Shown: piece after piece, positions 48,426-64,000 of the stretch
How positions within the stretch are numbered: the stretch's first letter is position 1
How the letters are laid out: each line of letters opens with the position of its first letter
Assembly (NCBI RefSeq): GCF_000300875.1
Contig: NZ_AMSG01000008.1
Coordinates: 1-64,000, forward strand
Origin: Galbibacter marinus
Lineage (GTDB): Bacteria > Bacteroidota > Bacteroidia > Flavobacteriales > Flavobacteriaceae
DNA: 64,000 bases
Direction: 5' to 3'
The notes under the pieces: generated by a model
What the model was told of the DNA's origin: nothing
The model's input: only the letters and a program-made list of their open reading frames with translations
Databases searched by the model: none
Program-made: the position numbers and the translations under genes

Positions 48426-49358
48426 ATGAAAAAAACAATTCTAAAAAATCTTACGGCCATCGCCACGGTGTTGGCTGTTACCACTGTTATGTCCTGCAAG
48501 GAGAAAACAGAAAAAAAATCTGAAAACGCGACTCCTGCAGTCGAGCAGACTACACAAACAACCCAAGATCAATTTGGCGGTATTGCGCTTTACACTTTAC
48601 GCGATGATATGGGGAAAGATGTTGCTGGCACCCTGGAAGAGGTAGCAAAAGCTGGATATCAAAACCTAGAAGCTGCAGGTTATAAAGATGGTATGTATTA
48701 TGGTATGGCTCCTGAAGAATTTAAACAGCTTGCGGAATCTAAAGGACTTAACCTAATTAGCACACACCAGTCAAGTGCGACGCTGGACAATGCGGATAAA
48801 GAAATCGCAGATGCTAAAGCGGCAGGCTTTAAGTATTTTGTAATTCCCATTCCTCCTATGGGACATTTTAAATTCGATTCAAAAACGCAAACCATGGGAA
48901 TGGACCCTGATTTGGATTTTGTAGTTGATTTTTTAAATACTGTCGGTGAAAAATGTGCAGACGCTGGTTTACAATTACTATACCACAACCACGATTTTGA
49001 ATTCATGCCAAATGAAAATAACATTGTTCCAATTAAATATTTCCTTGAAAACACTGATCCAAAATATGTCAATTTTCAAATGGATCTCTTTTGGGTAACC
49101 AAAACTGGTGCAGATCCAGTTGCTTACTTTGAGGAATATCCTGGACGCTTTAAACTATGGCATGTTAAAGACATGGACGATGAAGGTAAATTTGCCCCTG
49201 TAGGTGAAGGCACCATTGACTTTGGAAGAATTTTAGCTAAAAAAGAGCAATCGGGAATGGAATATTATATGGTTGAACAAGACATGACTTTTGACCAAAC
49301 ACCTATAGAGGCAATTAATGTAAGCCATAAAGGACTTGAAGAAATCGGATTCAAATAG
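48426..49358 (+). CDS. sugar phosphate isomerase/epimerase-like TIM-barrel lipoprotein
   Basis: 310 residues. The signal peptide ends in VMSC with Cys24, then a polar linker leads into a xylose-isomerase-like TIM barrel (about 50-310). Barrel motifs include LEAAGYKDGMYYG, LISTHQSSATL, LLYHNHDFEFM, with His and Glu as likely metal ligands, and LWHVKDMDDEGKFAPVGEG. Lipid anchoring implies that it acts outside the cytoplasm, so the substrate is probably a free or keto sugar rather than a sugar phosphate. Relatives occur beside DUF1080 and Gfo/Idh/MocA genes like those at 54-57 kb. Confidence 0.87.
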   Translation: MKKTILKNLTAIATVLAVTTVMSCKEKTEKKSENATPAVEQTTQTTQDQFGGIALYTLRDDMGKDVAGTLEEVAKAGYQNLEAAGYKDGMYYGMAPEEFKQLAESKGLNLISTHQSSATLDNADKEIADAKAAGFKYFVIPIPPMGHFKFDSKTQTMGMDPDLDFVVDFLNTVGEKCADAGLQLLYHNHDFEFMPNENNIVPIKYFLENTDPKYVNFQMDLFWVTKTGADPVAYFEEYPGRFKLWHVKDMDDEGKFAPVGEGTIDFGRILAKKEQSGMEYYMVEQDMTFDQTPIEAINVSHKGLEEIGFK

Positions 49359-52881: not shown

Positions 52882-52891
52882 GTGTACGTAC
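52882..52891. promoter_or_regulatory. GTGTACGTAC, operator-like copy in the lacI promoter
   Basis: Ten bases identical to the core of the palindrome before the DUF1080 gene (54163-54178). It lies 20 bases upstream of the -7 box, over the -33 region, consistent with autoregulation of the LacI-type gene. Confidence 0.55.
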
Positions 52892-52941: not shown

Positions 52942-54006
52942 TTGACAATTAAAGAAATAGCCAAACTAGCCAACGTATCATTAGGTACAGTAGATCGGGT
53001 AATTCACAAAAGAGGAAAAGTTTCCAAAGAAACTGAAAAAAAGATTCTGGACATTATTGATAAAGTGAATTACACACCCAATATTTATGCGCGCGGCTTA
53101 GTGTTGAATAAACAGTATCGCATTAAAGCACTCCTGCCTGAATTTAGACAAGGGCAATATTGGGAAATGCCTGTAAAGGGGATGCAAAATGCGGCTACTA
53201 ACCTGAGTCAGTTTGGCATTCAATTAGAAGTGTTATACTTTGATCAAAATTCTGTAACCTCCTTTAATAGTGCAGCTAAGCAACTATTGAGCTATAAACC
53301 TGATGGGGTAATTTTAGCTCCTGTAATTAACTTCGAGGCTGTAAAATTATCCAAGAAATTAAAGGACGCTCAAATACCCTATGTGCTTATCGATTCGCTA
53401 ATTCAAAATAGCGAACCTTTGAGTTTTATTGGGCAAGATGCCTTTCAAAGCGGTAGGCTTGCCGCTAAGCTTCTTTGCACAGAGATCAATTTAAAAGGAT
53501 CTATTTCCATTATTTCAATTAAGAATAATGAAAACTACAACAGCACTTTACAGCAAAGAATTGAAGGTTTTAAGGATTATATAGCCAATAGCGACTTTAT
53601 AGATCAAATATCTTTAAATGAATCGCATATCCACGTTGGTTCACCTGATATGCCTATGGCAATAGAGAATGCTATTGGTACGAAAGAAAACGTTGATGGG
53701 GTTTTTGTTCCTAGTTCAATGATCCACCATGTCGCAGCCTATGTGGATAGGTACAGACAAAGATTTCCGAATTTAAAAATGATTGGAAACGACCTTATTC
53801 CAAACAATATTAGACATTTAGAAAAAGGAACTATTCACTACCTTATCGGGCAACGACCAGAGAATCAAGGTTACTATGCTCTATCTAGCTTTTATAAACA
53901 TTTAGTGTTAGGGCAAAGAGTTGCCGAAGACATCTATCTTCCTCTAGATATCATAACACAAGAAAATCTAAAATATTACAATAATAATTTTCAGTACAAC
54001 TTTTAA
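52942..54006 (+). CDS. LacI family transcriptional regulator
   Basis: 354 residues. The N-terminal helix-turn-helix is TIKEIAKLANVSLGTVDRVI, followed by the hinge region (KILDIIDKVNYTPNIYARGL) and a periplasmic-binding-like sugar-sensing domain (about 60-350). The start is TTG, chosen because it places the HTH at the usual distance from the N-terminus. The effector is unknown, but the neighbouring DUF1080/oxidoreductase/uronate genes point to a sugar or uronate. The GTGTACGTAC sequence in its own promoter and its palindromic form before the next gene are likely binding sites. Confidence 0.92.
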   Translation: MTIKEIAKLANVSLGTVDRVIHKRGKVSKETEKKILDIIDKVNYTPNIYARGLVLNKQYRIKALLPEFRQGQYWEMPVKGMQNAATNLSQFGIQLEVLYFDQNSVTSFNSAAKQLLSYKPDGVILAPVINFEAVKLSKKLKDAQIPYVLIDSLIQNSEPLSFIGQDAFQSGRLAAKLLCTEINLKGSISIISIKNNENYNSTLQQRIEGFKDYIANSDFIDQISLNESHIHVGSPDMPMAIENAIGTKENVDGVFVPSSMIHHVAAYVDRYRQRFPNLKMIGNDLIPNNIRHLEKGTIHYLIGQRPENQGYYALSSFYKHLVLGQRVAEDIYLPLDIITQENLKYYNNNFQYNF

Positions 54007-54162
54007 TAATTAAGATAACTCTCTATGAAAAAAACACTTAATCAACTTACTACTAATATTTTAACACTGTCAATCGCATTTTTTAAAACACAACAACTAG
54101 TTTTGATAACCTATTAGGCCCAGTTACTAGTTAAAATCATAAAAATTAAAGTATACCTTGCC

Positions 54163-54178
54163 GTGTGTACGTACACAC
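54163..54178. promoter_or_regulatory. perfect 16-bp palindrome GTGTGTACGTACACAC, LacI operator
   Basis: Each half is the exact reverse complement of the other, with a central CG as in LacI-family operators. It lies 38 bases before the DUF1080 start and 2 bases after a TATACCTTG sequence that may be a weak -7 box, so binding would block transcription initiation. Confidence 0.75.
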
Positions 54179-54215
54179 AAACAAAATAGTATAATCCTGC
54201 TAATAATATATAAAT

Positions 54216-55595
54216 ATGAAAACTACAGTAAGCAACATGAAACTACTAAGCCTTGCCATTTGTTCACTAGGGCTTCTTTGGTCTTGCGAACCTCAGGGCG
54301 ACCCTACTCCATGGGAGCCATTATTCAACGGTGAAGACTTAAATGGATGGACTCAAATCGGTGGTAAGGCCAATTACAGAGTGGAAAATCAAGCTGTCAT
54401 TGGTTCTACAGTACACAACACACCGAATTCATTTATGACAACAGAAAAAATGTATGATGATTTTATTTTAGAATTGGAATATAAGGTAGATTCCACGATG
54501 AATTCTGGAATTCAAATTCGAAGTAACAGCACACCTACTTATCAAAATGGTCGTGTCCACGGCTATCAAATTGAAATTGATCCTTCTGATCGCGCATGGA
54601 GTGCTGGGATATACGATGAGGCACGTCGTGGTTGGCTTGTTCCACTTACGGACAATAAGGACGCACAAGAGGCTTTTAAGCAAGGACAATGGAATCATTA
54701 TAGAATTGAAGCTATTGGTGATACAATTAAAACTTGGATCAACGATATCCCTGCTTCATTTCTCATTGATGACAAAACCCATTCAGGATTTATTGCCCTT
54801 CAAGTACACAGTATCGGAAAAGATGCTAAGGAGGGTACTGAAATCCACTGGAGGAATATCAATATACTCACAGATAGCCTTCAAAAATACACTAAAAAGA
54901 GCCCTTTAACTCCAGTGACTACGAAAAATAAGTTAACTATCAGTGAGCAGAAGGATGGTTGGGAATTACTTTGGGACGGAACTTCCACAGACGGATGGAG
55001 AGGTGCTAAATTGGAAAGTTTTCCTGAAAAAGGCTGGATAATTGAAGATGGTGTTTTAACCGTTATCGAGAGTGAAGGTAAAGAATCTGCTGCTGGCGGT
55101 GATATTGTAACAGAACAAACATATGGGAATTTTGAACTCAAAATTGATTTTAGAATAACCCAGGGTGCAAACAGCGGGATTAAATATTATGTTGATACTG
55201 ACCTTAATAAAGGAACTGGTTCAGCTATTGGTTTGGAATATCAAATTTTAGATGACTTAAGGCATCCAGATGCGAAGTTAGGAAATCATGAAGGAAGTAG
55301 AACCCTGGCCTCTTTATACGATTTGATTAAAGCTGATCTTAACAAACCTGTCAATGAAATCGGAAGCTGGAATACAGCGCATATTATATCAAAAGACGGT
55401 AAGGTTCAGCATTGGCTCAACGGCATGAAAGTTCTGGAGTTTGACCGCTTTAGCGAAGAGTTTCAAATGTTGGTTTCTGAAAGTAAATACAAAGACTGGC
55501 CAAATTTTGGGGTCTTAGAGACTGGAAATATTCTTTTACAAGACCACGGAAATAGAGTGTCTTTTAAAAATATTAAAATCAAAACTTCAAATTAA
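54216..55595 (+). CDS. two-domain DUF1080 (3-keto-disaccharide hydrolase-like) lipoprotein
   Basis: 459 residues. A signal peptide ends in LWSC with Cys24; a second ATG at codon 8 is an alternative start. Two DUF1080/PF06439 jelly-roll domains follow (about 30-215 and 245-457). Both open with the family hallmark (WEPLFNGEDLNGW and WELLWDGTSTDGW) and both carry NSGI (SGIQIR and NSGIKYYV). Most family members have a single domain, so the tandem form is notable. Members have been tied to breakdown of 3-keto glycosides made by Gfo/Idh/MocA-type dehydrogenases, and one is encoded 6 bases downstream. The substrate is unknown. Confidence 0.88.
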   Translation: MKTTVSNMKLLSLAICSLGLLWSCEPQGDPTPWEPLFNGEDLNGWTQIGGKANYRVENQAVIGSTVHNTPNSFMTTEKMYDDFILELEYKVDSTMNSGIQIRSNSTPTYQNGRVHGYQIEIDPSDRAWSAGIYDEARRGWLVPLTDNKDAQEAFKQGQWNHYRIEAIGDTIKTWINDIPASFLIDDKTHSGFIALQVHSIGKDAKEGTEIHWRNINILTDSLQKYTKKSPLTPVTTKNKLTISEQKDGWELLWDGTSTDGWRGAKLESFPEKGWIIEDGVLTVIESEGKESAAGGDIVTEQTYGNFELKIDFRITQGANSGIKYYVDTDLNKGTGSAIGLEYQILDDLRHPDAKLGNHEGSRTLASLYDLIKADLNKPVNEIGSWNTAHIISKDGKVQHWLNGMKVLEFDRFSEEFQMLVSESKYKDWPNFGVLETGNILLQDHGNRVSFKNIKIKTSN

Positions 55596-55601
55596 AATAC
55601 C

Positions 55602-56942
55602 ATGACAAATAGAAGAAAATTCATAAAAAACACCATTTTAGGAAGTACAGCTGTCGCATTAGGTGGATCTGCCATGGCCATGCCAGCGAGTAGTTATCGT
55701 AATATCATAGGAGCAAACGATCGCCTAAATGTAGCTATTGCTGGTCTAGGGCGACGTGTAGGCGCTTTTTATGAGCCCATTGCTCGCAAACAAAGCAACG
55801 TACGTCTTAGTTACTTATGTGATGTCATGGAGCACCAAAGAACTAGAGCCATGGAAAATGTCTCAAAACTACTAGATTATAAACCAACTCCTGAGAATGA
55901 CATCAGAAAGGTAATTGATGATAAGAAGGTAGATGTTCTAATTAACGCTACACCAGACCATTGGCACACACCAGGGTCAATTATGGCTCTTAAAGGAGGA
56001 AAACACGTATATGTTGAAAAGCCTTCAAGCCACAACATGAATGAAAATGAGCTTCTTGTAGAAGCTGCCAAAAAATACGACAAGGTTGTTCAAATGGGGA
56101 ATCAACAGCGATCTGCTCCCCATACGATAGAGATCATCAACGAAATACATAACGGACTGATTGGTAATGCTTATAAGGCTCTTGCATTCTATAGCAATTC
56201 AAGAGGCGAAACTCCAAAGCAACAAAAAGCGCCCATCCCTACTGGGTTAGATTGGGAATTATGGCAGGGCCCTGCAATACATCGCGAGTATACCTCAGAA
56301 ACTTGGGATTACAATTGGCATTGGTATGGTTGGAACTACGGAACAGCTGAAGCTGGAAATAATGCTACTCATGAATTGGACATTGCTCGCTGGGCATTAG
56401 ATGTACATTATCCAAGCTATGCTTCCGTGGAGGCTGATAAAAGACACTTTGTTGATGATGGTTGGGAAATGTACGATTCCATTTTAGCAACCTTCGAATT
56501 CCCTAATAAGAAAGTAATACAATGGGATGGACAAAGTAGAAATGGCTACCAGACCTATGGTGCAGGACGAGGAACGATTATTTACGGTACCGAGGGAAGT
56601 GTTTTTGTTGATAGAGGAAGATATGTGGTATACGACCGTTATGGTAAAATTGTAAAACAATACGATTCCGCAAATTCAGAATCCGGGACAGCCCTAGGTG
56701 GTGGCGGTGATATATCTACGGATCATATGGTGAACTTTTTTGAAAGCATCCGAGGGAAACAAAAGTTAAATGCACCCATCGATGATGCGAACATCAGTAT
56801 GGCTCTAGTACACTATACCAACATTGCTTATAGAATAGGTAAAGGATTTAACGTGGATCAAAACACAGGTCGATTCCAAGACCCTGCTGCGATGAAGCTT
56901 TGGGGTAGAACGTATCAAGAAGGCTGGGAATTAACCTTGTAA
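55602..56942 (+). CDS. Tat-exported Gfo/Idh/MocA family oxidoreductase
   Basis: 446 residues. A twin-arginine signal (NRRKFIKNTILGSTAVALGGSAMA) precedes the Rossmann domain (LNVAIAGLGRRVGAFYEP). The conserved YVEKPSSHN motif holds the EKP Lys, and the second half contains the substrate-binding GWNYGTAEAGNNATHELDIA. Export by Tat means that it leaves the cytoplasm folded with its nicotinamide cofactor. It is likely to oxidise a sugar at C3, or reduce the keto form, together with the DUF1080 protein upstream. kdgF follows 15 bases later, so the two functions are in one transcript. Confidence 0.92.
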   Translation: MTNRRKFIKNTILGSTAVALGGSAMAMPASSYRNIIGANDRLNVAIAGLGRRVGAFYEPIARKQSNVRLSYLCDVMEHQRTRAMENVSKLLDYKPTPENDIRKVIDDKKVDVLINATPDHWHTPGSIMALKGGKHVYVEKPSSHNMNENELLVEAAKKYDKVVQMGNQQRSAPHTIEIINEIHNGLIGNAYKALAFYSNSRGETPKQQKAPIPTGLDWELWQGPAIHREYTSETWDYNWHWYGWNYGTAEAGNNATHELDIARWALDVHYPSYASVEADKRHFVDDGWEMYDSILATFEFPNKKVIQWDGQSRNGYQTYGAGRGTIIYGTEGSVFVDRGRYVVYDRYGKIVKQYDSANSESGTALGGGGDISTDHMVNFFESIRGKQKLNAPIDDANISMALVHYTNIAYRIGKGFNVDQNTGRFQDPAAMKLWGRTYQEGWELTL

Positions 56943-56957
56943 AATCTATTTTGAAAT

Positions 56958-57314
56958 ATGAACAAGAATGACGCCTTTTTTTTAGCAAAGAAGAATGAGT
57001 GGGAAACCGTATCAAAAGGCATAAGTAGGCAAATCACAGGATATAATGACCAAATAATGATGGTCAAAGTAAAGTTTGAAAAAGGGGCTATAGGTTCCCT
57101 GCACCAACATCCTCATACCCAAAGTTCATACGTGGCCTCTGGGGCATTTGAAATTACCATCAACGGCGACAAACAACGTCTTGAGACTGGGGATACATTT
57201 TTGGTAAACCCTGATCTAATCCATGGTGCTGTTTGTCTAGAGGCTGGGATACTCTTGGATGTTTTTACCCCTTTAAGAGAAGACTTTATAAATAATAAAG
57301 AAACACAAAGATGA
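56958..57314 (+). CDS. kdgF: KdgF-like cupin, unsaturated uronate ring-opening enzyme
   Basis: 118-residue single-domain cupin. KdgF converts the unsaturated uronate monomers released by pectate or alginate lyases into the open-chain ketouronates. The protein matches that family along its length: a start with EWETVSKGISRQITGY, metal ligands in HQHPHTQ (two His and Gln) and a further His in NPDLIHGAVCLEAGILLDVFTPLREDF. The next gene's ATG overlaps its stop by 4 bases, showing translational coupling to the SDR. Confidence 0.9.
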   Translation: MNKNDAFFLAKKNEWETVSKGISRQITGYNDQIMMVKVKFEKGAIGSLHQHPHTQSSYVASGAFEITINGDKQRLETGDTFLVNPDLIHGAVCLEAGILLDVFTPLREDFINNKETQR

Positions 57315-58114
57315 CATTAAAAGATAAAGTAGCCATCATAACTGGTGGAAACGGAGTGCTAGGAGGTGCTATCGCTATGGGATTAGCTTCACAAGGTGTT
57401 AAAGTCGCAATATTAGGAAGAACTGAACATTCAGTACAGGCGCGGGTTGATCAAATTAAACAATCTAAAGGTCAATCTATTGGACTTATAGCAGATGTAT
57501 TAGATCAAGCTAGTTTAGAATGTGCAAGTGAAACAATTATAAAAAAATGGGGGAAAATCGACATTTTGATCAATGGCGCAGGAGGAAATTTAAAAGGTGC
57601 TACCATCGCTGATCAAGACAATTTTTTTGATCTTTCTTTTGATGATTTTGACAAAGTCACTCAATTAAATTTAAAAGGAACCTTACTACCCACCTTTGTA
57701 TTTGGAAAATCCATGGCAAAACAGGGTAAAGGAAGTGTTCTAAATATATCTTCCATGTCAGCACAACAAGCAATTACGCGCATTGTGGGTTATTCTGCCA
57801 GTAAGGCAGCGGTGGACAACTTTACAAAGTGGTTGGCTGTAGAGATGGCATTAAAATACGGAGAAGGAATCAGGGTCAATGCCATAGCACCTGGCTTTTT
57901 TATTGGAGAACAAAACAGAGCTCTTTTGCTGCAGGATGATGGTAGTTTAACCCAAAGAGGGAAAACCATTGTAGAGCAGACCCCTATGAAAAGATTCGGA
58001 AAACCTGAAGAGCTTCAAGGAGTAGTGAATTGGCTGGTAAGTGATCAAGCTAGTTTTGTCACTGGAGTTATTATTCCTATTGATGGAGGGTTTAGTGCCT
58101 TTAGCGGAGTTTAA
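57311..58114 (+). CDS. SDR oxidoreductase, probable D-mannonate / fructuronate oxidoreductase
   Basis: 267 residues of the classical short-chain dehydrogenase family: cofactor motif [18 protein letters not shown] in place of NNAG, Ser in NISSMS, and YSASK as the YxxxK pair. It lies between kdgF and uxuA, where the reductase making mannonate from fructuronate is needed. Bacteroidota commonly use an SDR in place of the E. coli UxuB polyol dehydrogenase type. The alternative is a DEH reductase for alginate products. The function is inferred from context. Confidence 0.85.
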
Positions 58115-58125
58115 AAAAAAATAAG

Positions 58126-59328
58126 ATGAGTACAGAACAGATCATATTTGAAAAAACATGGCGGTGGTATGGACCAAATGACCCCGTGAGCCTAGATGAT
58201 ATCAAACAAGCTGGTGCCACTGGAATAGTAACTGCATTGCACCATATCCCCAATGGCGAGGTGTGGGAAGTGGATGAAATAGAAAAACGAAAAAAAATCA
58301 TCAAGCAAAAAGGACTTCGCTGGGCAGTTGTAGAAAGCGTACCAGTTCATGAGTCAATTAAAACACAGAGTGGAGATTTTCAAAAATACATAGCGAATTA
58401 TAATCAAACTATCAAAAACCTTGGTCAGTGCGGAATTCACATTCTGTGTTATAATTTTATGCCTGTTTTAGATTGGACACGTACCGATTTGGAGTATAAA
58501 TTAGAAGATGGTTCTACTGCCCTTCGCTTTGATAAAAATGCCTTTGCAGCCTTTGAACTCTACCTTTTAAAAAGACCAGGAGCAGAAAATGTCTACACCG
58601 AGCTTGAACAAAAGCAAGCATTGGCATACATAGAGTCTTGCAATGAGAACCAAAAAAAGCAACTGATCAATAACATTATCGCTGGATTACCTGGTGCGGA
58701 AGAGGGTTATACCCTTGATGCTTTTAATAGCATACTAGAGACCTATAAGGAAGTGGATGAGAAAAAATTAAAATCCCACTTATTTTACTTTCTTCAGCAA
58801 GTTGTCCCCGTTGCCGAGTTATCTGGAGTACGCATGTGTATTCATCCTGATGATCCCCCCTTCCCTATTTTAGGATTACCAAGGGTGGTGAGTACTCTTG
58901 AAGATATACAACAGATCTATAAAGCAGTGGATAGTCCAAATAATGGATTGACATTCTGTACAGGTTCATTTGGCGTTCGAGCCGATAACGATCTAGTTAC
59001 AATGATAAAAACCCTAGGAGACCGCATACACTTTGCACACCTTAGAAGCACTCAAAGAGATGCATCAGGGAATTTCTATGAAGCGAATCACTTAGAAGGA
59101 GATGTAGATATGTATGGTGTGGTAAAGGCACTAATAGAGCAACAGCTGAAAAGAAAACAAAACAATCGCTCAGATTTTAGCATTCCTATTCGCCCTGATC
59201 ATGGCCATAAAATGCTCGATGATTTAAATAAGTGGACAAACCCAGGCTATTCAGCTATTGGAAGACTTAAAGGTTTAGCAGAACTGCGAGGACTAGAATT
59301 TGGTATACTCAAATCAATAAAAAGGTAA
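58126..59328 (+). CDS. uxuA: D-mannonate dehydratase
   Basis: 400 residues; removes water from D-mannonate to give 2-keto-3-deoxygluconate (KDG). The N-terminus ([25 protein letters not shown]) and the metal-binding [27 protein letters not shown]-like (IHFAHLRS) and [11 protein letters not shown] motifs are those of UxuA. It starts 11 bases after the SDR stop and is the last gene before the kduI promoter. Confidence 0.96.
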
Positions 59329-59463: not shown

Positions 59464-60300
59464 ATGATGAAGATAGACTTTAGATACGCTAGCCATCCAG
59501 TGGATGCGAGAAGCTACGGAACAGATGAATTAAGATCTCATTTTTTACTTGACCCCATTTTTAGTGCAGATCAAATTCACCTCACCTACTCCATGTACGA
59601 TCGCTATATCGTCGGAGGGGTAATGCCTGTAAATAAAGCTCTAAAATTAGAAACCTTTGACCATTTAAAATCATCCTATTTTTTGGAACGAAGAGAGTTA
59701 GGAGTTATTAATGTCGGAGGATCGGGCAAGGTAACAGTGGATGGAGAGGTATTCCAGTTAGACAAAAAAGAAGCACTATATGTTGCCAAGGAATCCAAGG
59801 AAGTTACCTTCGAATCTAGTGGTAATGAACAGGCTTTATTTTATATCAACTCCGCACCTGCACACCACAGGTTTACAACTAAAAAAGTTGGACGTCAGGA
59901 TGCTGAAATTATAAACCTAGGAGATGATAAGTACGCCAATAAGAGGATTTTAAATAAATTAATTGTAAATAGTATTGTAGAGACCTGTCAATTACAAATG
60001 GGACTTACGGAGCTTGAACCTGGTAATGTTTGGAATACGATGCCAGCTCACACGCATAATAGAAGGATGGAAGCTTATTTTTACTTTGATCTCGAAGATG
60101 GGCAAACTGTTTGTCACTTTATGGGTGAACCTCAACATACTAGACACATCTTTATGCAAAACCACCAAGCAGTTCTATCTCCAGAATGGTCAATTCACTC
60201 TGGTTCGGGAACTGCAAGCTATTCCTTTATATGGGGCATGGCTGGTGAGAATCTAGATTATGGCGATATGGATGGTGTTGCTCCAAATGAATTAAAATAA
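59464..60300 (+). CDS. kduI: 5-dehydro-4-deoxy-D-glucuronate isomerase (KduI)
   Basis: 279 residues from ATG 59464. A frame extension to a TTG at 59404 would include the operator and promoter, so it is rejected. Isomerises 4-deoxy-5-ketouronate (DKI) to DKII, the substrate of KduD. Conserved blocks include SYFLERRELGVINVGGSG, NTMPAHTHNRRMEAYFYF with zinc-binding His and Glu, and WSIHSGSGTASYSFIWGM. kduD follows 7 bases later. Confidence 0.96.
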   Translation: MMKIDFRYASHPVDARSYGTDELRSHFLLDPIFSADQIHLTYSMYDRYIVGGVMPVNKALKLETFDHLKSSYFLERRELGVINVGGSGKVTVDGEVFQLDKKEALYVAKESKEVTFESSGNEQALFYINSAPAHHRFTTKKVGRQDAEIINLGDDKYANKRILNKLIVNSIVETCQLQMGLTELEPGNVWNTMPAHTHNRRMEAYFYFDLEDGQTVCHFMGEPQHTRHIFMQNHQAVLSPEWSIHSGSGTASYSFIWGMAGENLDYGDMDGVAPNELK

Positions 60301-60307
60301 ATTGAAA

Positions 60308-61093
60308 ATGAAACTATTTGATTTAAAAGGCAAACGTGCCCTGGTAACTGGAGGAACTCATGGACTAGGAATGGCTATGGCCGAAGGTCTAGCCGAAGCT
60401 GGAGCAGAACTAGTGATCAGTAGTACAACTCCTGAAAAACTTGAAAAAGCCCTTGTGCATTATAAAAGTAAAGGATATACCGCCTCGGGATATATCTTTG
60501 ATATCACAGATGAGGAAGAAGCTGCTAGAAAAGTAAAAGAAATTAACACTAACCAAGGCACGATTGACATCTTAGTCAATAATGCTGGGATCATTAAACG
60601 AGAATTAGCCATAGATATGAAGGTTTCGGACTTTAGAAGAGTCATCGATGTAGACCTTGTGGGCGCCTTTATTATGTCGCAACTTGTTGTTAAAGATATG
60701 ATCGAGAACGGAGGTGGTAAAATCATCAATATCTGTTCGATGATGAGTGAGCTTGGAAGAAATAGTGTATCAGCGTACGCCGCTGCTAAGGGAGGGCTCA
60801 AAATGCTAACCCAGAACCTGGCCACAGAATGGGCTAAGTATAATATCCAAGTAAATGGTATTGGTCCAGGATATTTTGCCACAACACAAACTGCGCCTAT
60901 TCGCGTGGATGGAAATCCATTTAATGATTTTATCATTAATCGCACACCAGCGGCACGTTGGGGAGATCCAGAGGATCTTGCAGGTACAGCGGTCTTTTTA
61001 GCTTCTCAGGCAAGTAAGTTTGTCAATGGCCAAGTAATTTATGTTGATGGTGGTATACTTGCTACTATTGGTAAACCTTTAAATGAAAATTAA
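60308..61093 (+). CDS. kduD: SDR oxidoreductase KduD (2-deoxy-D-gluconate 3-dehydrogenase type)
   Basis: 261 residues from ATG 60308; a TTG two codons upstream is less likely. Reduces DKII to KDG with NAD(P)H. SDR motifs: TGGTHGLGMAMA (about 13-24), NNAG, INICSMMS with Ser, and YAAAK. Its pairing with kduI, and RIPA-like NRTPAARWG near the C-terminus, support KduD over gluconate 5-dehydrogenase. The TAA stop shares one base with the uxaC ATG. Confidence 0.92.
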   Translation: MKLFDLKGKRALVTGGTHGLGMAMAEGLAEAGAELVISSTTPEKLEKALVHYKSKGYTASGYIFDITDEEEAARKVKEINTNQGTIDILVNNAGIIKRELAIDMKVSDFRRVIDVDLVGAFIMSQLVVKDMIENGGGKIINICSMMSELGRNSVSAYAAAKGGLKMLTQNLATEWAKYNIQVNGIGPGYFATTQTAPIRVDGNPFNDFIINRTPAARWGDPEDLAGTAVFLASQASKFVNGQVIYVDGGILATIGKPLNEN

Positions 61094-62499
61094 TGGAAAA
61101 CGATGCCTTTATACATGATAATTTCTTATTAAGCAACAAATTTGCTGAGGAGTTATACCACAACTATGCCAGTAAAATGCCAATCATCGATTATCACTGC
61201 CACCTTTCACCAAAAGAAATTGCAGAGAATAAGGTTTTTGAAAATATCACCCAGGCATGGATTTATGGTGATCACTATAAATGGAGAGCAATGAGAACCC
61301 TGGGGATTCCAGAGAAATATATCACTGGAAAGGCAAGCGATCAGGAGAAATTTGAAAAATGGGCTCAAACTGTACCCTACACTCTTAGAAATCCCTTATA
61401 CCATTGGACACAGCTAGAACTTGCTCGGTATTTTGACATCGATCAGTTGCTTAGTCCTAAGACGGCTACAGAGATCTATAATCAAACTTCAGATCAGTTA
61501 AACACTCAACAGTACAGTACTCAGGGCATCCTTAAGAAAATGAATGTCAAGGTAGTATGTACCACAGAAGATCCAACTGATACTTTGGAGCACCATAAAA
61601 CGCTGGCTGAGTCCGATTTAGAGACTCATATAAGCACTTCTTTCCGTCCTGACAAGGCTATTATGATTAATCATCATGGCTTTTTAGGCTACATCAGTGC
61701 CTTAGAAGAAGCCTCTGGGGTTTCCATTAATTCCTATCGCGATTTAAAGTTTGCCCTACTCCAGAGGATTGAATATTTCCACCAAAACGGATGCCGCGTT
61801 TCTGACCATGGATTAAATTACATTCCTTTTACCTCCTATAACGAAGCGGAAGTAACTAAAATATTTAATAAAAAACTAGATAAGCAAAATTTAAGTGCTG
61901 AAGAGATCTTAAAATACGAGACAGCTATACTACGATACCTGTCTCAAGAATACCATACTCGAGGGTGGGTTCAACAATTTCATCTTGGAGCCTTGCGCAA
62001 TAATAACACCAGAATGCTGGCTGAATTAGGGCCAGATACTGGATGGGATTCCATAGCTGATTATCCACAAGCTGAAAATCTATCTAAATTTTTAAACAGC
62101 CTAGATGTAGAAGATCAACTCACCAAGACCATTATTTACAACCTCAACCCAGCAGACAATGAAGTCATGGCCTCAATGATTGGAAACTTTAATGATGGAT
62201 CAATCAAAGGAAAAGTACAGTTTGGTTCAGGATGGTGGTTTTTAGATCAAAAGGATGGAATGACCAAACAGATGAACGCATTATCGAACATGGGACTTAT
62301 TAGTTGTTTTATAGGTATGCTTACAGATTCAAGAAGCTTTTTGTCCTTTCCTAGACATGAGTATTTTAGAAGGGTCTTATGTAACTTATTCGGCCAAGAA
62401 ATCCAGCAAGGGGAATTACCGAATGACATGCCATGGATAGGTAAAATCATACAAGATATCTCATACAATAACGCAAAAGAGTACTTTAACTTTAAATAA
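61093..62499 (+). CDS. uxaC: glucuronate isomerase
   Basis: 468 residues of the amidohydrolase-related UxaC family; isomerises D-glucuronate to D-fructuronate and D-galacturonate to D-tagaturonate. It has the metal-site IIDYHCHLSPKEIAENK near residue 30 and later FHLGALRNNNTRM, GPDTGWDS and MLTDSRSFLSFPRHEYFRR. Its start overlaps the kduD stop, indicating coupled translation. With uxuA present and no altronate enzymes seen, the glucuronate branch is the likely one. Confidence 0.96.
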   Translation: MENDAFIHDNFLLSNKFAEELYHNYASKMPIIDYHCHLSPKEIAENKVFENITQAWIYGDHYKWRAMRTLGIPEKYITGKASDQEKFEKWAQTVPYTLRNPLYHWTQLELARYFDIDQLLSPKTATEIYNQTSDQLNTQQYSTQGILKKMNVKVVCTTEDPTDTLEHHKTLAESDLETHISTSFRPDKAIMINHHGFLGYISALEEASGVSINSYRDLKFALLQRIEYFHQNGCRVSDHGLNYIPFTSYNEAEVTKIFNKKLDKQNLSAEEILKYETAILRYLSQEYHTRGWVQQFHLGALRNNNTRMLAELGPDTGWDSIADYPQAENLSKFLNSLDVEDQLTKTIIYNLNPADNEVMASMIGNFNDGSIKGKVQFGSGWWFLDQKDGMTKQMNALSNMGLISCFIGMLTDSRSFLSFPRHEYFRRVLCNLFGQEIQQGELPNDMPWIGKIIQDISYNNAKEYFNFK

Positions 62500-62519: not shown

Positions 62520-63530
62520 ATGAAAAAAGTCATTGCACTAGGTGAAATATTACTTCGGTTTTCCACCACAGATCACCTTAGAATCTCGCAATCCAATGCG
62601 TTCAATGCTGATTATGGGGGTAGTGAACTAAATGTTCTTACCTCCGCGGCTAACTTTGGAATGGACTGCGAAATGGTCACGGTATTACCTAACAATGATC
62701 TGGGAATGGCTGCTGTAATGCAAATGCGAAAGTTTAACATTGGCACAAAATTTATCCCAAAAGCTGGAGAGCGTCTTGGGCTTTACTTTTTAGAAAAAGG
62801 AGCCTCTGTCCGCGGCAGTAAAATTATTTATGACCGAACGCATTCTAGTTTTTCTCAAATCAAGCCAGGAATGATCAATTGGGAGGATGTTTTCAAAGAA
62901 GCAAGTTGGTTTCATTGGTCTGGAATAACCGCTGGTGTGTCACAAGGTGCTGCAGATGTATGTCTAGAAGCTATTGAAGTCGCTTATAAAATGGGACTAA
63001 CCATTTCTACGGATTTTAACTATAGAGCAAATCTTTGGAATTACGGAAAATCTGCAGGGGAAATTATGGAGGCTATGGTATCGAAATGTCATATTATCTT
63101 GGCAGGAGATTATGCGTCAAGACAATACTTTAACATCCATGCTAAGGGAGAATCTAAAGACGAATTGAATAAATCACTTTGTGAAAAATTAAAAGATCGT
63201 TTTCCAATAGCAGAAAAAATAATTATTACCCATCGCGATAATATTAGTGCTTTGCATAACAAGTGGAGTGCTGTACTCTACACTGATGGGAAACTGTTAA
63301 AATCCCAATCCTATGACATCACAGATATTGTTGACCGCATAGGAGCTGGTGATAGCTTTATGGGTGCATTGATTTACGGGTTAAATCACTTCGAAGACCA
63401 AAAAGCCCTAGAGTTTGCCGTTGCAGCATCATGCTTAAAACACACCATCTATGGGGATGCGAATTTAGTTACCACTCAAGAGGTTATTGATCTTACACAG
63501 GGAGATTCAACAGGAAGGGTGCGCAGATAG
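62520..63530 (+). CDS. kdgK: 2-keto-3-deoxygluconate kinase (PfkB family)
   Basis: 336 residues; phosphorylates KDG to KDPG. PfkB features: an N-terminal GEILLRFS and YGGSELNVLTSAANFG substrate region, and the C-terminal signature DRIGAGDSFMGAL with catalytic Asp278. The last residues are basic. It starts 20 bases after uxaC and is followed after 23 bases by the KDPG aldolase gene. Confidence 0.94.
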   Translation: MKKVIALGEILLRFSTTDHLRISQSNAFNADYGGSELNVLTSAANFGMDCEMVTVLPNNDLGMAAVMQMRKFNIGTKFIPKAGERLGLYFLEKGASVRGSKIIYDRTHSSFSQIKPGMINWEDVFKEASWFHWSGITAGVSQGAADVCLEAIEVAYKMGLTISTDFNYRANLWNYGKSAGEIMEAMVSKCHIILAGDYASRQYFNIHAKGESKDELNKSLCEKLKDRFPIAEKIIITHRDNISALHNKWSAVLYTDGKLLKSQSYDITDIVDRIGAGDSFMGALIYGLNHFEDQKALEFAVAASCLKHTIYGDANLVTTQEVIDLTQGDSTGRVRR

Positions 63531-63553: not shown

Positions 63554-64000
63554 ATGAAAACATATACCAGAATAGAAGTTCTCAAAACCATGGAAACAAC
63601 AGGTTTAGTACCCTTGTACTACAACCCTGAAGCAGAAGTGATGTGTGAAGTTGTAAAAGCTTGTTACCAAGGGGGAGCACGATTATTCGAATTTACCTCC
63701 CGGGGACCATTGGCTCACGAGGTGTTCACCACCCTTGTCAAATACTGTCAAAAAAACTGTCCTGACCTCATCCTTGGTGTGGGCTCGGTAACTGATGCAG
63801 GATCTGCTTCGTTGTACATGCAACTTGGAGCTCAATTTATTGTAACTCCTGTTTTTAGAGAAGATATCGCTAGGGTATGTAATCGTAGAAAAGTATTGTG
63901 GTCACCGGGATGCGGTTCTTTAACTGAAATTGCCTACGCTGAAGAATTCGGATGTGAAATCGTTAAATTATTTCCAGGCTCCATATACGGTCCTGAATTT
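63554..64000 (+). CDS. eda: KDPG / 4-hydroxy-2-oxoglutarate aldolase, 3' end beyond window
   Basis: The first 149 codons are visible and the frame is open to the right edge. Class I aldolase of the Eda family; splits KDPG into pyruvate and glyceraldehyde-3-phosphate. The proton-transfer Glu46 is in FEFTSRGP, the GVGSV strand follows, and the Schiff-base Lys138 is in CEIVKLFPG. The protein is more diverged from E. coli Eda in its N-terminal third. It completes the KDG route begun upstream. Confidence 0.9.
   Translation, partial: MKTYTRIEVLKTMETTGLVPLYYNPEAEVMCEVVKACYQGGARLFEFTSRGPLAHEVFTTLVKYCQKNCPDLILGVGSVTDAGSASLYMQLGAQFIVTPVFREDIARVCNRRKVLWSPGCGSLTEIAYAEEFGCEIVKLFPGSIYGPEF

Follow-up and report, generated by a model that had tools for sequence, protein, structure and literature searches.

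A tandem-DUF1080 and Gfo/Idh/MocA gene pair found near hexuronate genes in Bacteroidota is a candidate exported deglycosylation module

The window analysed here, positions 1-64000 of contig C8 of the 3.57 Mb genome of Galbibacter marinus, contains two adjacent genes on the + strand. The first encodes a tandem DUF1080 protein (DUF1080x2; 54216..55595), a probable lipoprotein of the 3-keto-disaccharide-hydrolase family, and the second a Gfo/Idh/MocA dehydrogenase with a predicted twin-arginine translocation (Tat) signal (GFO; 55602..56942). They lie downstream of a LacI-family regulator gene, within a run of genes for hexuronate catabolism. We propose, with a probability of about 55%, that these two genes encode an exported module for oxidoreductive deglycosylation, which serves the hexuronate regulon and releases saturated hexuronates. 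That the pair acts on uronates at all we consider slightly better than an even bet. Its association with hexuronate genes exceeds chance, and a putative operator is common to the pair and to hexuronate genes in other Bacteroidota.

The two genes are conserved as a unit, a GFO gene being present on the same strand and within 400 bp of DUF1080x2 at 101 of 120 loci. In the family, 149 genomes were sampled and searched with thresholds of E 1e-60 for DUF1080x2 and E 1e-20 for KdgF. DUF1080x2 matches were present in 44 genomes (50 matches, including half-length ones in G108, G020:C30:25441, G102 and G139, for which the word tandem is used loosely), UxaC in 55 and KdgF in 45. UxaC was found in 39 of the 44 genomes with a DUF1080x2 match versus 16 of the 105 without one, a co-presence inflated by relatedness and genome content. 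As to proximity, 14 of the 50 matches were located within 20 kb of UxaC (one of them, G020:C30:25441, a 201-residue half match), whereas random placement would give 0.54. Single-domain DUF1080 proteins served as a control (98 rows from the matches listed, restricted to those with an open frame of 203-354 codons and thus without the longer ones). In the family genomes that bear UxaC, 14 of 45 DUF1080x2 matches were within 20 kb of this gene, but only 1 of 61 single-domain proteins (Fisher's test, 1.6e-5, with genomes treated as independent). A second sample, of 395 genomes across the phylum, comprised 80 with a match; 66 of the 75 that were new relative to the first sample had UxaC, and in the UxaC genomes 8 of 61 full-length tandem loci were within 20 kb of it, versus 0.61 expected.

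The same association is seen in the gene order of individual loci, in which genes were called with a simple longest-open-reading-frame script, their names coming from BLASTP comparison with the window proteins. In a genome of the same genus (L118), LacI, DUF1080x2, GFO, UxuA, UxaC, KdgK, KdgA and DctPQM form one run, with no KdgF or KduI in the stretch. At L131, L135 and L141 the order is UxuB-UxuA-UxaC-...-DctPQM-DUF1080x2-GFO, and L149 has a similar set plus UxaA. In Bacteroidales the pair ends a run comprising a UxuB-type short-chain dehydrogenase/reductase (SDR), a PfkB kinase, a 6-phosphogluconate dehydrogenase and a nickel-dependent hexonate epimerase, which at L037 is preceded by UxaC and a UxaE-type gene. 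The pair is also found in ulvan-type loci, together with a Uly1040-like lyase, PL28 and a sulfatase-GH78 fusion. Altogether 119 other pair loci were tabulated: 79 from named genomes and 40 of the same family, 40 of the 50 family matches having been fetched wide (L011, on the same chromosome as L012, was left out, so that 119 of 120 remain). Hexuronate markers were present at 29 of them, PL28, Uly1040-like or GH88-type genes at 9, the sulfatase-GH78 fusion at 16 and any of these at 47. The flanks extend at most about 10 kb and are often cut by contig ends, so that absences are soft.

The Bacteroidales runs deserve a separate remark. UxaC or the UxuB-type SDR, the epimerase, the PfkB kinase and the 6-phosphogluconate dehydrogenase are found at L037:510-11377, L023, L029, L034, L050, L051, L054, L057, L058 and L073. 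The epimerase of L037 scores 644.6 with NF052594 (cut-off 500), and the epimerase accompanies UxaC or the SDR at 15 of 119 loci. By their predicted gene content, these runs look like a mannonate-to-gluconate route that replaces UxuA and the 2-keto-3-deoxygluconate (KDG) branch.

The putative operator provides a second line of evidence. The palindrome GTGTGTACGTACACAC (54163..54178, no strand assigned) is situated 37 bp before the start of DUF1080x2 and is the sole match in the window when up to 3 mismatches are allowed (0.06 expected by shuffling). A partial copy, GTGTACGTAC (52882..52891, + strand), matches exactly 50 bp before the called start of the LacI gene and was obtained in 0 of 100 shuffles of the window; this is likely a second operator site. 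Genome-wide, GTGTACGTAC has 4 matches, both strands counted, 3 of them at this locus. The 14-mer core TGTGTACGTACACA was found exactly at 6 sites besides the window in about 2.2 Mb of loci that had not been chosen for it, with about 0.01 expected; eight exact sites were found in all, from which the window, as source of the motif, and L158, which was fetched for the motif, were left out. One of the 6 sites precedes DUF1080x2 in the same-genus genome, four precede the SDR/UxuB gene at the head of runs ending in GFO-DUF1080x2 (L051, L054, L057 and L058), and one precedes a SusC-...-LacI-DUF1080x2 run in L068. L054, L057 and L058 being close relatives, this corresponds to about 4 independent cases, window included. 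A 13-of-14 copy precedes the pair at L150, with the start as we placed it. The LacI protein in front of the same-genus pair is 63% identical to that of the window, and the DNA-binding region GTVDRV(I/L)HKRGKVS is common to the window, L118 and L051. These findings support LacI-type control of the pair jointly with uronate genes, as the initial annotation had suggested. With an operator sequence and a gene run in common with UxaC, UxuA and UxuB genes elsewhere, the pair is a putative member of the hexuronate regulon.

The exact motif is rare in the family: the 149 genomes contain it 3 times, always within this genus (once in the G. marinus genome and twice in the same-genus genome). Allowing one mismatch yielded 28 places in 23 genomes versus 18 forward matches of a reversed control, indicating that most of these are noise. 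Six loci were fetched for the motif. One of them, L158, belongs to the same-genus genome, where two more sites (14 and 13 of 14; uncounted) precede an SDR/UxuB gene that has no counterpart in the main operon of this genome. L159 has LacI and a 41% GFO by the sites, and L160-L163 have neither the pair nor a hexuronate gene, L160 having a 30% GFO-like gene. Divergent from the SDR/UxuB gene at this second operator pair is a gene (L158:2795-9817) for a secreted-looking protein of 2340 aa with Ig-like, nidogen-like and Por-secretion domains.

Both proteins resemble enzymes of 3-keto-glycoside metabolism. DUF1080x2 contains two PF06439 stretches (288.8 bits, cut-off 26.8) and matches the solved protein 4jqt over nearly its whole mature length (E 1.5e-161), while its C-terminal half also matches the single-domain proteins 8tda and 8rr2. 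Both halves are conserved, 44 and 69 positions being kept in at least 96% of 120 sequences, all of which had been picked as at least 400 aa long. The N-terminus looks by inspection like a lipoprotein signal; a loose lipobox pattern was present in 79 of the 120 sequences and a stricter one in 54, with starts uncorrected.

GFO has a Pfam Rossmann domain and the C-terminal domain of its family, and starts with MTNRRKFIK, a twin-arginine motif by inspection. Among 37 aligned partners, a selection from the adjacent GFO partners listed, R4, R5 and F7 of the predicted Tat signal are invariant, as are E139, K140, P141, H257 and D260; we take the EKP lysine and the H..D residues to be the catalytic motifs of Gfo/Idh/MocA enzymes. 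The best match, both in profile and in fold, is the glucoside 3-dehydrogenase AL3 of Alistipes: E 1e-60 over residues 40-412 with 8tdf and, for the AlphaFold model (pLDDT 87), Z 38.3 with a root-mean-square deviation of 2.7 over 370 residues. The model also aligns with 8tdi, 'P2B11 Glucuronide-3-dehydrogenase' (Z 34.1), and with glucose-fructose oxidoreductase (Z 33.9). Full-length homology in profile and in modelled fold makes GFO a probable distant member of the glycoside 3-dehydrogenase group. Arg170 was considered as a binder of the substrate carboxylate and is not claimed as such: it is kept in 32 of the 37 partners (28/28 of the window type and 4/4 of the L145 type) and is replaced by His or Tyr in five Bacteroidales partners.

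At many loci of Flavobacteriaceae, a second Gfo/Idh/MocA gene comes directly after the pair (for instance L131:6574-7755, L148:6550-7728 and L150:6887-8068); its product is about 393 aa long and, by inspection, starts with a twin-arginine-like motif. The L131 protein, the sole one tested, was under every family cut-off, and 8tdi, which would suggest a glucuronide enzyme, was absent from its PDB matches up to E 1e-15.

We considered how such a pair might function. In the mechanism that we propose, GFO would be exported by the Tat system with NAD(P) bound and would oxidise, within a glycoside or oligosaccharide, C3 of a uronosyl residue such as glucuronate (GlcA) or galacturonate (GalA). The tandem DUF1080 protein would then cleave the 3-keto glycoside by elimination and hydration, after which GFO would reduce the 3-keto uronate back, the net result being a redox-neutral hydrolysis without external NAD. 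Glucose-fructose oxidoreductase is a Tat-exported enzyme with a captive cofactor, and we propose a redox-neutral cycle because of this precedent and of the fold similarity of GFO to that enzyme. The free saturated hexuronate would enter through the tripartite ATP-independent periplasmic (TRAP) transporter and be metabolized by UxaC, SDR/UxuB, UxuA, KdgK and KdgA in the GlcA branch, and through UxaB and UxaA in the GalA branch. The LacI protein would repress the operon through the palindrome.

Several observations weigh against this proposal. None of the tested uronate markers was present at 72 of the 119 loci, many of which have short flanks. At L148 the pair stands beside housekeeping genes (an aldehyde dehydrogenase and, by inspection, amino-acid-biosynthesis-like genes), and at L121 beside a PMSR gene. 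On a tree of the 120 DUF1080x2 proteins made by a quick method, the hexuronate label needs 8 changes as compared with 17.5 in shuffles (0 of 500 as low) and is thus clustered, so that the loci are not independent cases and amount to fewer than counted. Clustering is general among hexuronate and polysaccharide genes, only one control family (single-domain DUF1080) was used, and neighbourhood alone never proves a substrate. As for GFO itself, it scores 136.1 with NF058561, the equivalog model of the BT2158 family, below the cut-off of 750 (partners: L135 162, L016 130 and L145 90 in Flavobacteriaceae; L054 292 in Bacteroidales), its fold is nearer to the glucoside than to the glucuronide 3-dehydrogenase, and no set of residues marks uronate specificity among its aligned partners.

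An alternative explanation is that the pair cleaves neutral sugars, for instance the rhamnose, xylose or glucose that stand beside uronates in fragments of ulvan, rhamnogalacturonan or glucuronoxylan, by a route of the BT2157/BT2158 type, and that it is co-regulated with hexuronate genes because these polymers hold uronates. This would fit with the nearest solved relative of GFO, a glucoside 3-dehydrogenase with a trehalose-bound structure, with the resemblance of the C-terminal half of DUF1080x2 to 8tda and 8rr2 and with the sulfatase-GH78 fusion at 16 of the 119 loci. Furthermore, the glucan backbone of xanthan, itself a polymer that contains glucuronate, has been suggested as a target of cleavage by DUF1080 proteins (PMC5673643). 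Yet the operons with a TRAP transporter (same-genus genome, L131, L135 and L141) have hexuronate genes as their labelled partners, and we regard action on neutral sugars as unlikely, though a serious contender.

We also considered the possibility that the pair is a general 3-keto glycosidase and that its proximity to UxaC reflects a loose clustering of carbohydrate genes rather than a functional link. The loci without uronate markers speak for it, as do some genomes of the family with at least 20 DUF1080 matches. Against it, single-domain DUF1080 proteins of the same genomes were not found near UxaC, save for the one case mentioned above. Moreover, of the 8 changes on the tree, which are counted between hexuronate and ulvan rows, at least four are forced by well-supported branches (67 unlabelled rows being uncounted, and the ulvan label in the tree covering also any same-cluster sulfatase, while the locus counts given above come from the 119-locus table), and the operator is common to several loci. 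This explanation appears improbable.

The initial annotation had coupled the pair to kdgF and suggested 3-keto elimination as a source of unsaturated uronates that needs no classical polysaccharide lyase, KdgF being the next enzyme. The kdgF gene (56958..57314, + strand) indeed directly follows GFO after a 15-base gap, and its product is well identified as a KdgF-type cupin for ring opening of 4,5-unsaturated uronates (7zyb 8e-40, 5fq0 3.5e-26, 5fpx 4e-25), in which Asp101, numbered by counting from the alignment, is aligned with Asp102 of BeKdgF, the proposed catalytic residue. However, although 24 of the 149 family genomes have both a DUF1080x2 match and KdgF, the two are within 20 kb of each other only in the G. 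marinus genome (1 of 50 query matches), and KdgF was found at 0 of the 119 other pair loci. A search at E 1e-20 gave no KdgF match in the same-genus genome (G030), and KduI matches were likewise found at 0 of 119 other pair loci. The order DUF1080x2-GFO-kdgF was therefore rejected as a conserved unit. The pair does appear to stand next to kdgF by accident; the same cannot be said of its position next to the hexuronate pathway.

The chemistry does not support the coupling either. KdgF acts on 4,5-unsaturated monouronates (PMC11381880), whereas C3 oxidation followed by beta-elimination leads, in the levoglucosan pathway, to a 2-hydroxy-3-keto-glycal unsaturated at the 1,2 position, which is then hydrated and reduced (PMC7676230); an O-glycoside eliminase forms a 2-hydroxy-3-keto-glycal from a C3-oxidised glycoside (PMC10628242). 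As far as these sources go, the 3-keto route would provide a 1,2-ene where KdgF needs a 4,5-ene, so that the two chemistries do not join. In addition, the genome encodes a PL11 rhamnogalacturonan lyase and three GH88/105 genes over the cut-off, so that 4,5-unsaturated uronates can arise in it by the ordinary route; it also has three GH28 genes, while no PF00544 pectate lyase was found in it, lyase families other than PL11 and PF00544 having not been searched. Lyase-free production of unsaturated uronates was rejected on account of these enzymes and of the wrong position of the double bond, and a route in which KdgF acts directly after the pair is very improbable. In the best reading, the run has acquired KdgF, KduI and KduD as lineage-specific genes, for the products of ordinary lyases and GH88/105 enzymes, and these three are not downstream of the DUF1080 reaction. 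What remains of the earlier proposal is that two exported proteins may carry out 3-keto-type chemistry in connection with uronates, which is suggested by neighbourhoods richer in uronate genes than expected from random placement or from single-domain DUF1080 proteins.

Other DUF1080 genes are present in the genome. On contig C2, at about 66.9-71.3 kb (L005:6940-11303), a pair made of a Gfo/Idh/MocA gene and a single-domain DUF1080 gene lies beside the PL11 rhamnogalacturonan lyase gene, with GH28 and GH88/105 genes 20-40 kb beyond it on the same contig. On C1, at about 380-390 kb (L004:8297-17723), two DUF1080 proteins are accompanied by TIM-barrel proteins, Gfo/Idh/MocA proteins and what is by inspection a GMC-like oxidoreductase; this cluster resembles the general 3-keto-glycoside pathway and is separate from the pair of the window.

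Within the window, the order LacI gene (52942..54006, + strand, TTG start as called; PF00356 59.4 bits, PF13407 123.5 bits), 16-bp palindrome, tandem DUF1080, Tat-type GFO, KdgF, SDR and UxuA over 52942-59328 is as previously annotated and agrees with family and structure searches, and the intergenic gaps of 6, 15, -4 and 11 bases were identical upon recomputation. The likely single transcript noted in that annotation, from DUF1080 to UxuA, leaves out the remainder of the run, which goes on past UxuA. The SDR (57311..58114, +) scores 376.4 with NF006132 (cut-off 281) and is by this assignment a UxuB-type D-mannonate oxidoreductase rather than a generic SDR; with UxaC and UxuA, it would complete the glucuronate branch. 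UxuA, the mannonate dehydratase (58126..59328, +; TIGR00695 617 vs 199.55), is followed after about 134 bases by KduI, the 5-dehydro-4-deoxy-glucuronate isomerase (59464..60300, +, ATG at 59464), which scores 425.5 with NF002091 (cut-off 250) on a longer open reading frame from 59404. The SDR in the KduD position (60302..61093, +) scores 426 with NF005488, 'gluconate 5-dehydrogenase' (cut-off 369), and 249 with the KduD model, whose cut-off of 338.85 is not reached. Then come the hexuronate isomerase UxaC (61093..62499, +; PF02614 697 bits), a KdgK-type sugar kinase (62520..63530, +) between UxaC and KdgA, for which the best NCBIfam match, an aldolase/sugar-kinase fusion model (398 vs 700), and the next, a KDG/KDGal kinase model (182 vs 440), are both under cut-off, and a KdgA-type aldolase (63554..64000, + strand, extending to contig position 64222).

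Past the window end are DctP, a DctQ-sized gene, DctM and the galacturonate-branch genes UxaB and UxaA. Pfam supports DctP, DctM, UxaB (mannitol-dehydrogenase type) and UxaA (altronate-dehydratase type), while for KdgA and DctQ the names come from location and sequence rather than from a family call. By its predicted content, the run covers hexuronate catabolism in full and includes a TRAP transporter, which is more than an unsaturated-uronate pathway. A second polysaccharide utilization locus (PUL) comes after the run, with LacI, SusC/D, DUF4861, GH88/105, CE8 and CE12. Scans for promoters and terminators gave 15 versus 20.8 in shuffles and 7 versus 4.6, respectively. A sugar isomerase/epimerase-like TIM-barrel protein (PF01261) is encoded at 48426-49358, 3.6 kb upstream of the LacI gene, and a 30% relative is found at L118:19223-20000, where it follows the TRAP genes in the pair operon of the same-genus genome.

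The closest described system is the periplasmic 3-keto-glycoside pathway of the BT2157/BT2158 type in B. thetaiotaomicron, which combines an exported Gfo/Idh/MocA 3-dehydrogenase with a DUF1080 protein, as proposed for the present pair. BT2158 has been described as a glycoside 3-dehydrogenase that is located in the periplasm and required for disaccharides (PMC11300592) and BT2157 has been named a 3-ketotrehalose hydrolase (PMC9007349). The present pair differs by its tandem DUF1080, by a GFO distant from BT2158 (136 for a cut-off of 750) and by its location in a hexuronate operon. P2B11 (8tdi, released 2024-06-12) shares the Gfo/Idh/MocA fold, and its title implies that enzymes of this type oxidise glucuronides at C3, so that the chemistry itself is not new; GFO is, however, only 19% identical to it in the structural alignment, and 8tdi is absent from the profile matches at E 1e-20. 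AL3 (8tdf, 8tdh) is 26% identical to GFO and is, by title, a neutral glucoside enzyme. Among DUF1080 proteins the near full-length match is 4jqt, a tandem 'putative glycosyl hydrolase'. The product of the third operon gene is clearly homologous to KdgF (BeKdgF 7zyb, Yersinia and Halomonas KdgF), which here belongs to a lyase-derived branch that is not conserved with the pair.

LacI-family hexuronate regulons (KdgR, UxaR and UxuR) have been predicted in Bacteroides, where they comprise, as here, glucuronate and galacturonate genes; unlike in the present case, no DUF1080 or dehydrogenase pair is mentioned in the available text (PMC3878776). In the proteome of Maribacter grown on arabinogalactan, a Gfo/Idh/MocA protein of unknown function, possibly corresponding to the present GFO, was reported in a PUL with mannonate dehydratase, by a sugar-acid operon, and the available text does not mention DUF1080 (PMC11036162). 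In a literature search from which subscription journals were largely missing, we found no publication that joins DUF1080 or 3-keto chemistry to KdgF or uronates, nor one that describes a tandem-DUF1080/Tat-GFO pair in a LacI-controlled hexuronate operon.

A more far-reaching proposal, which we put forward tentatively and at less than even odds, is that Bacteroidota have a dedicated LacI-controlled 'uronosidase'. It would consist of a Gfo/Idh/MocA enzyme that is exported by Tat and holds its cofactor captive, together with a two-headed DUF1080 lipoprotein, and would release saturated hexuronates in the periplasm from ulvan, pectin and other polymers without a classical glucuronidase or lyase, for delivery to the TRAP transporter and UxaC. 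It would be wired into the hexuronate regulons of several lineages, one of which apparently epimerises mannonate to gluconate. The polysaccharides of algae and plants contain uronic acids as major constituents, the release of which is usually ascribed either to lyases acting with GH88/105 enzymes or to glucuronidases. If the pair functions as we propose, a conserved, co-regulated oxidative module would represent a third route of uronate release, missed by annotation based on carbohydrate-active enzymes, and would give a class of substrates to tandem-DUF1080 proteins, for which the entry name of the solved example, 4jqt, assigns no function.

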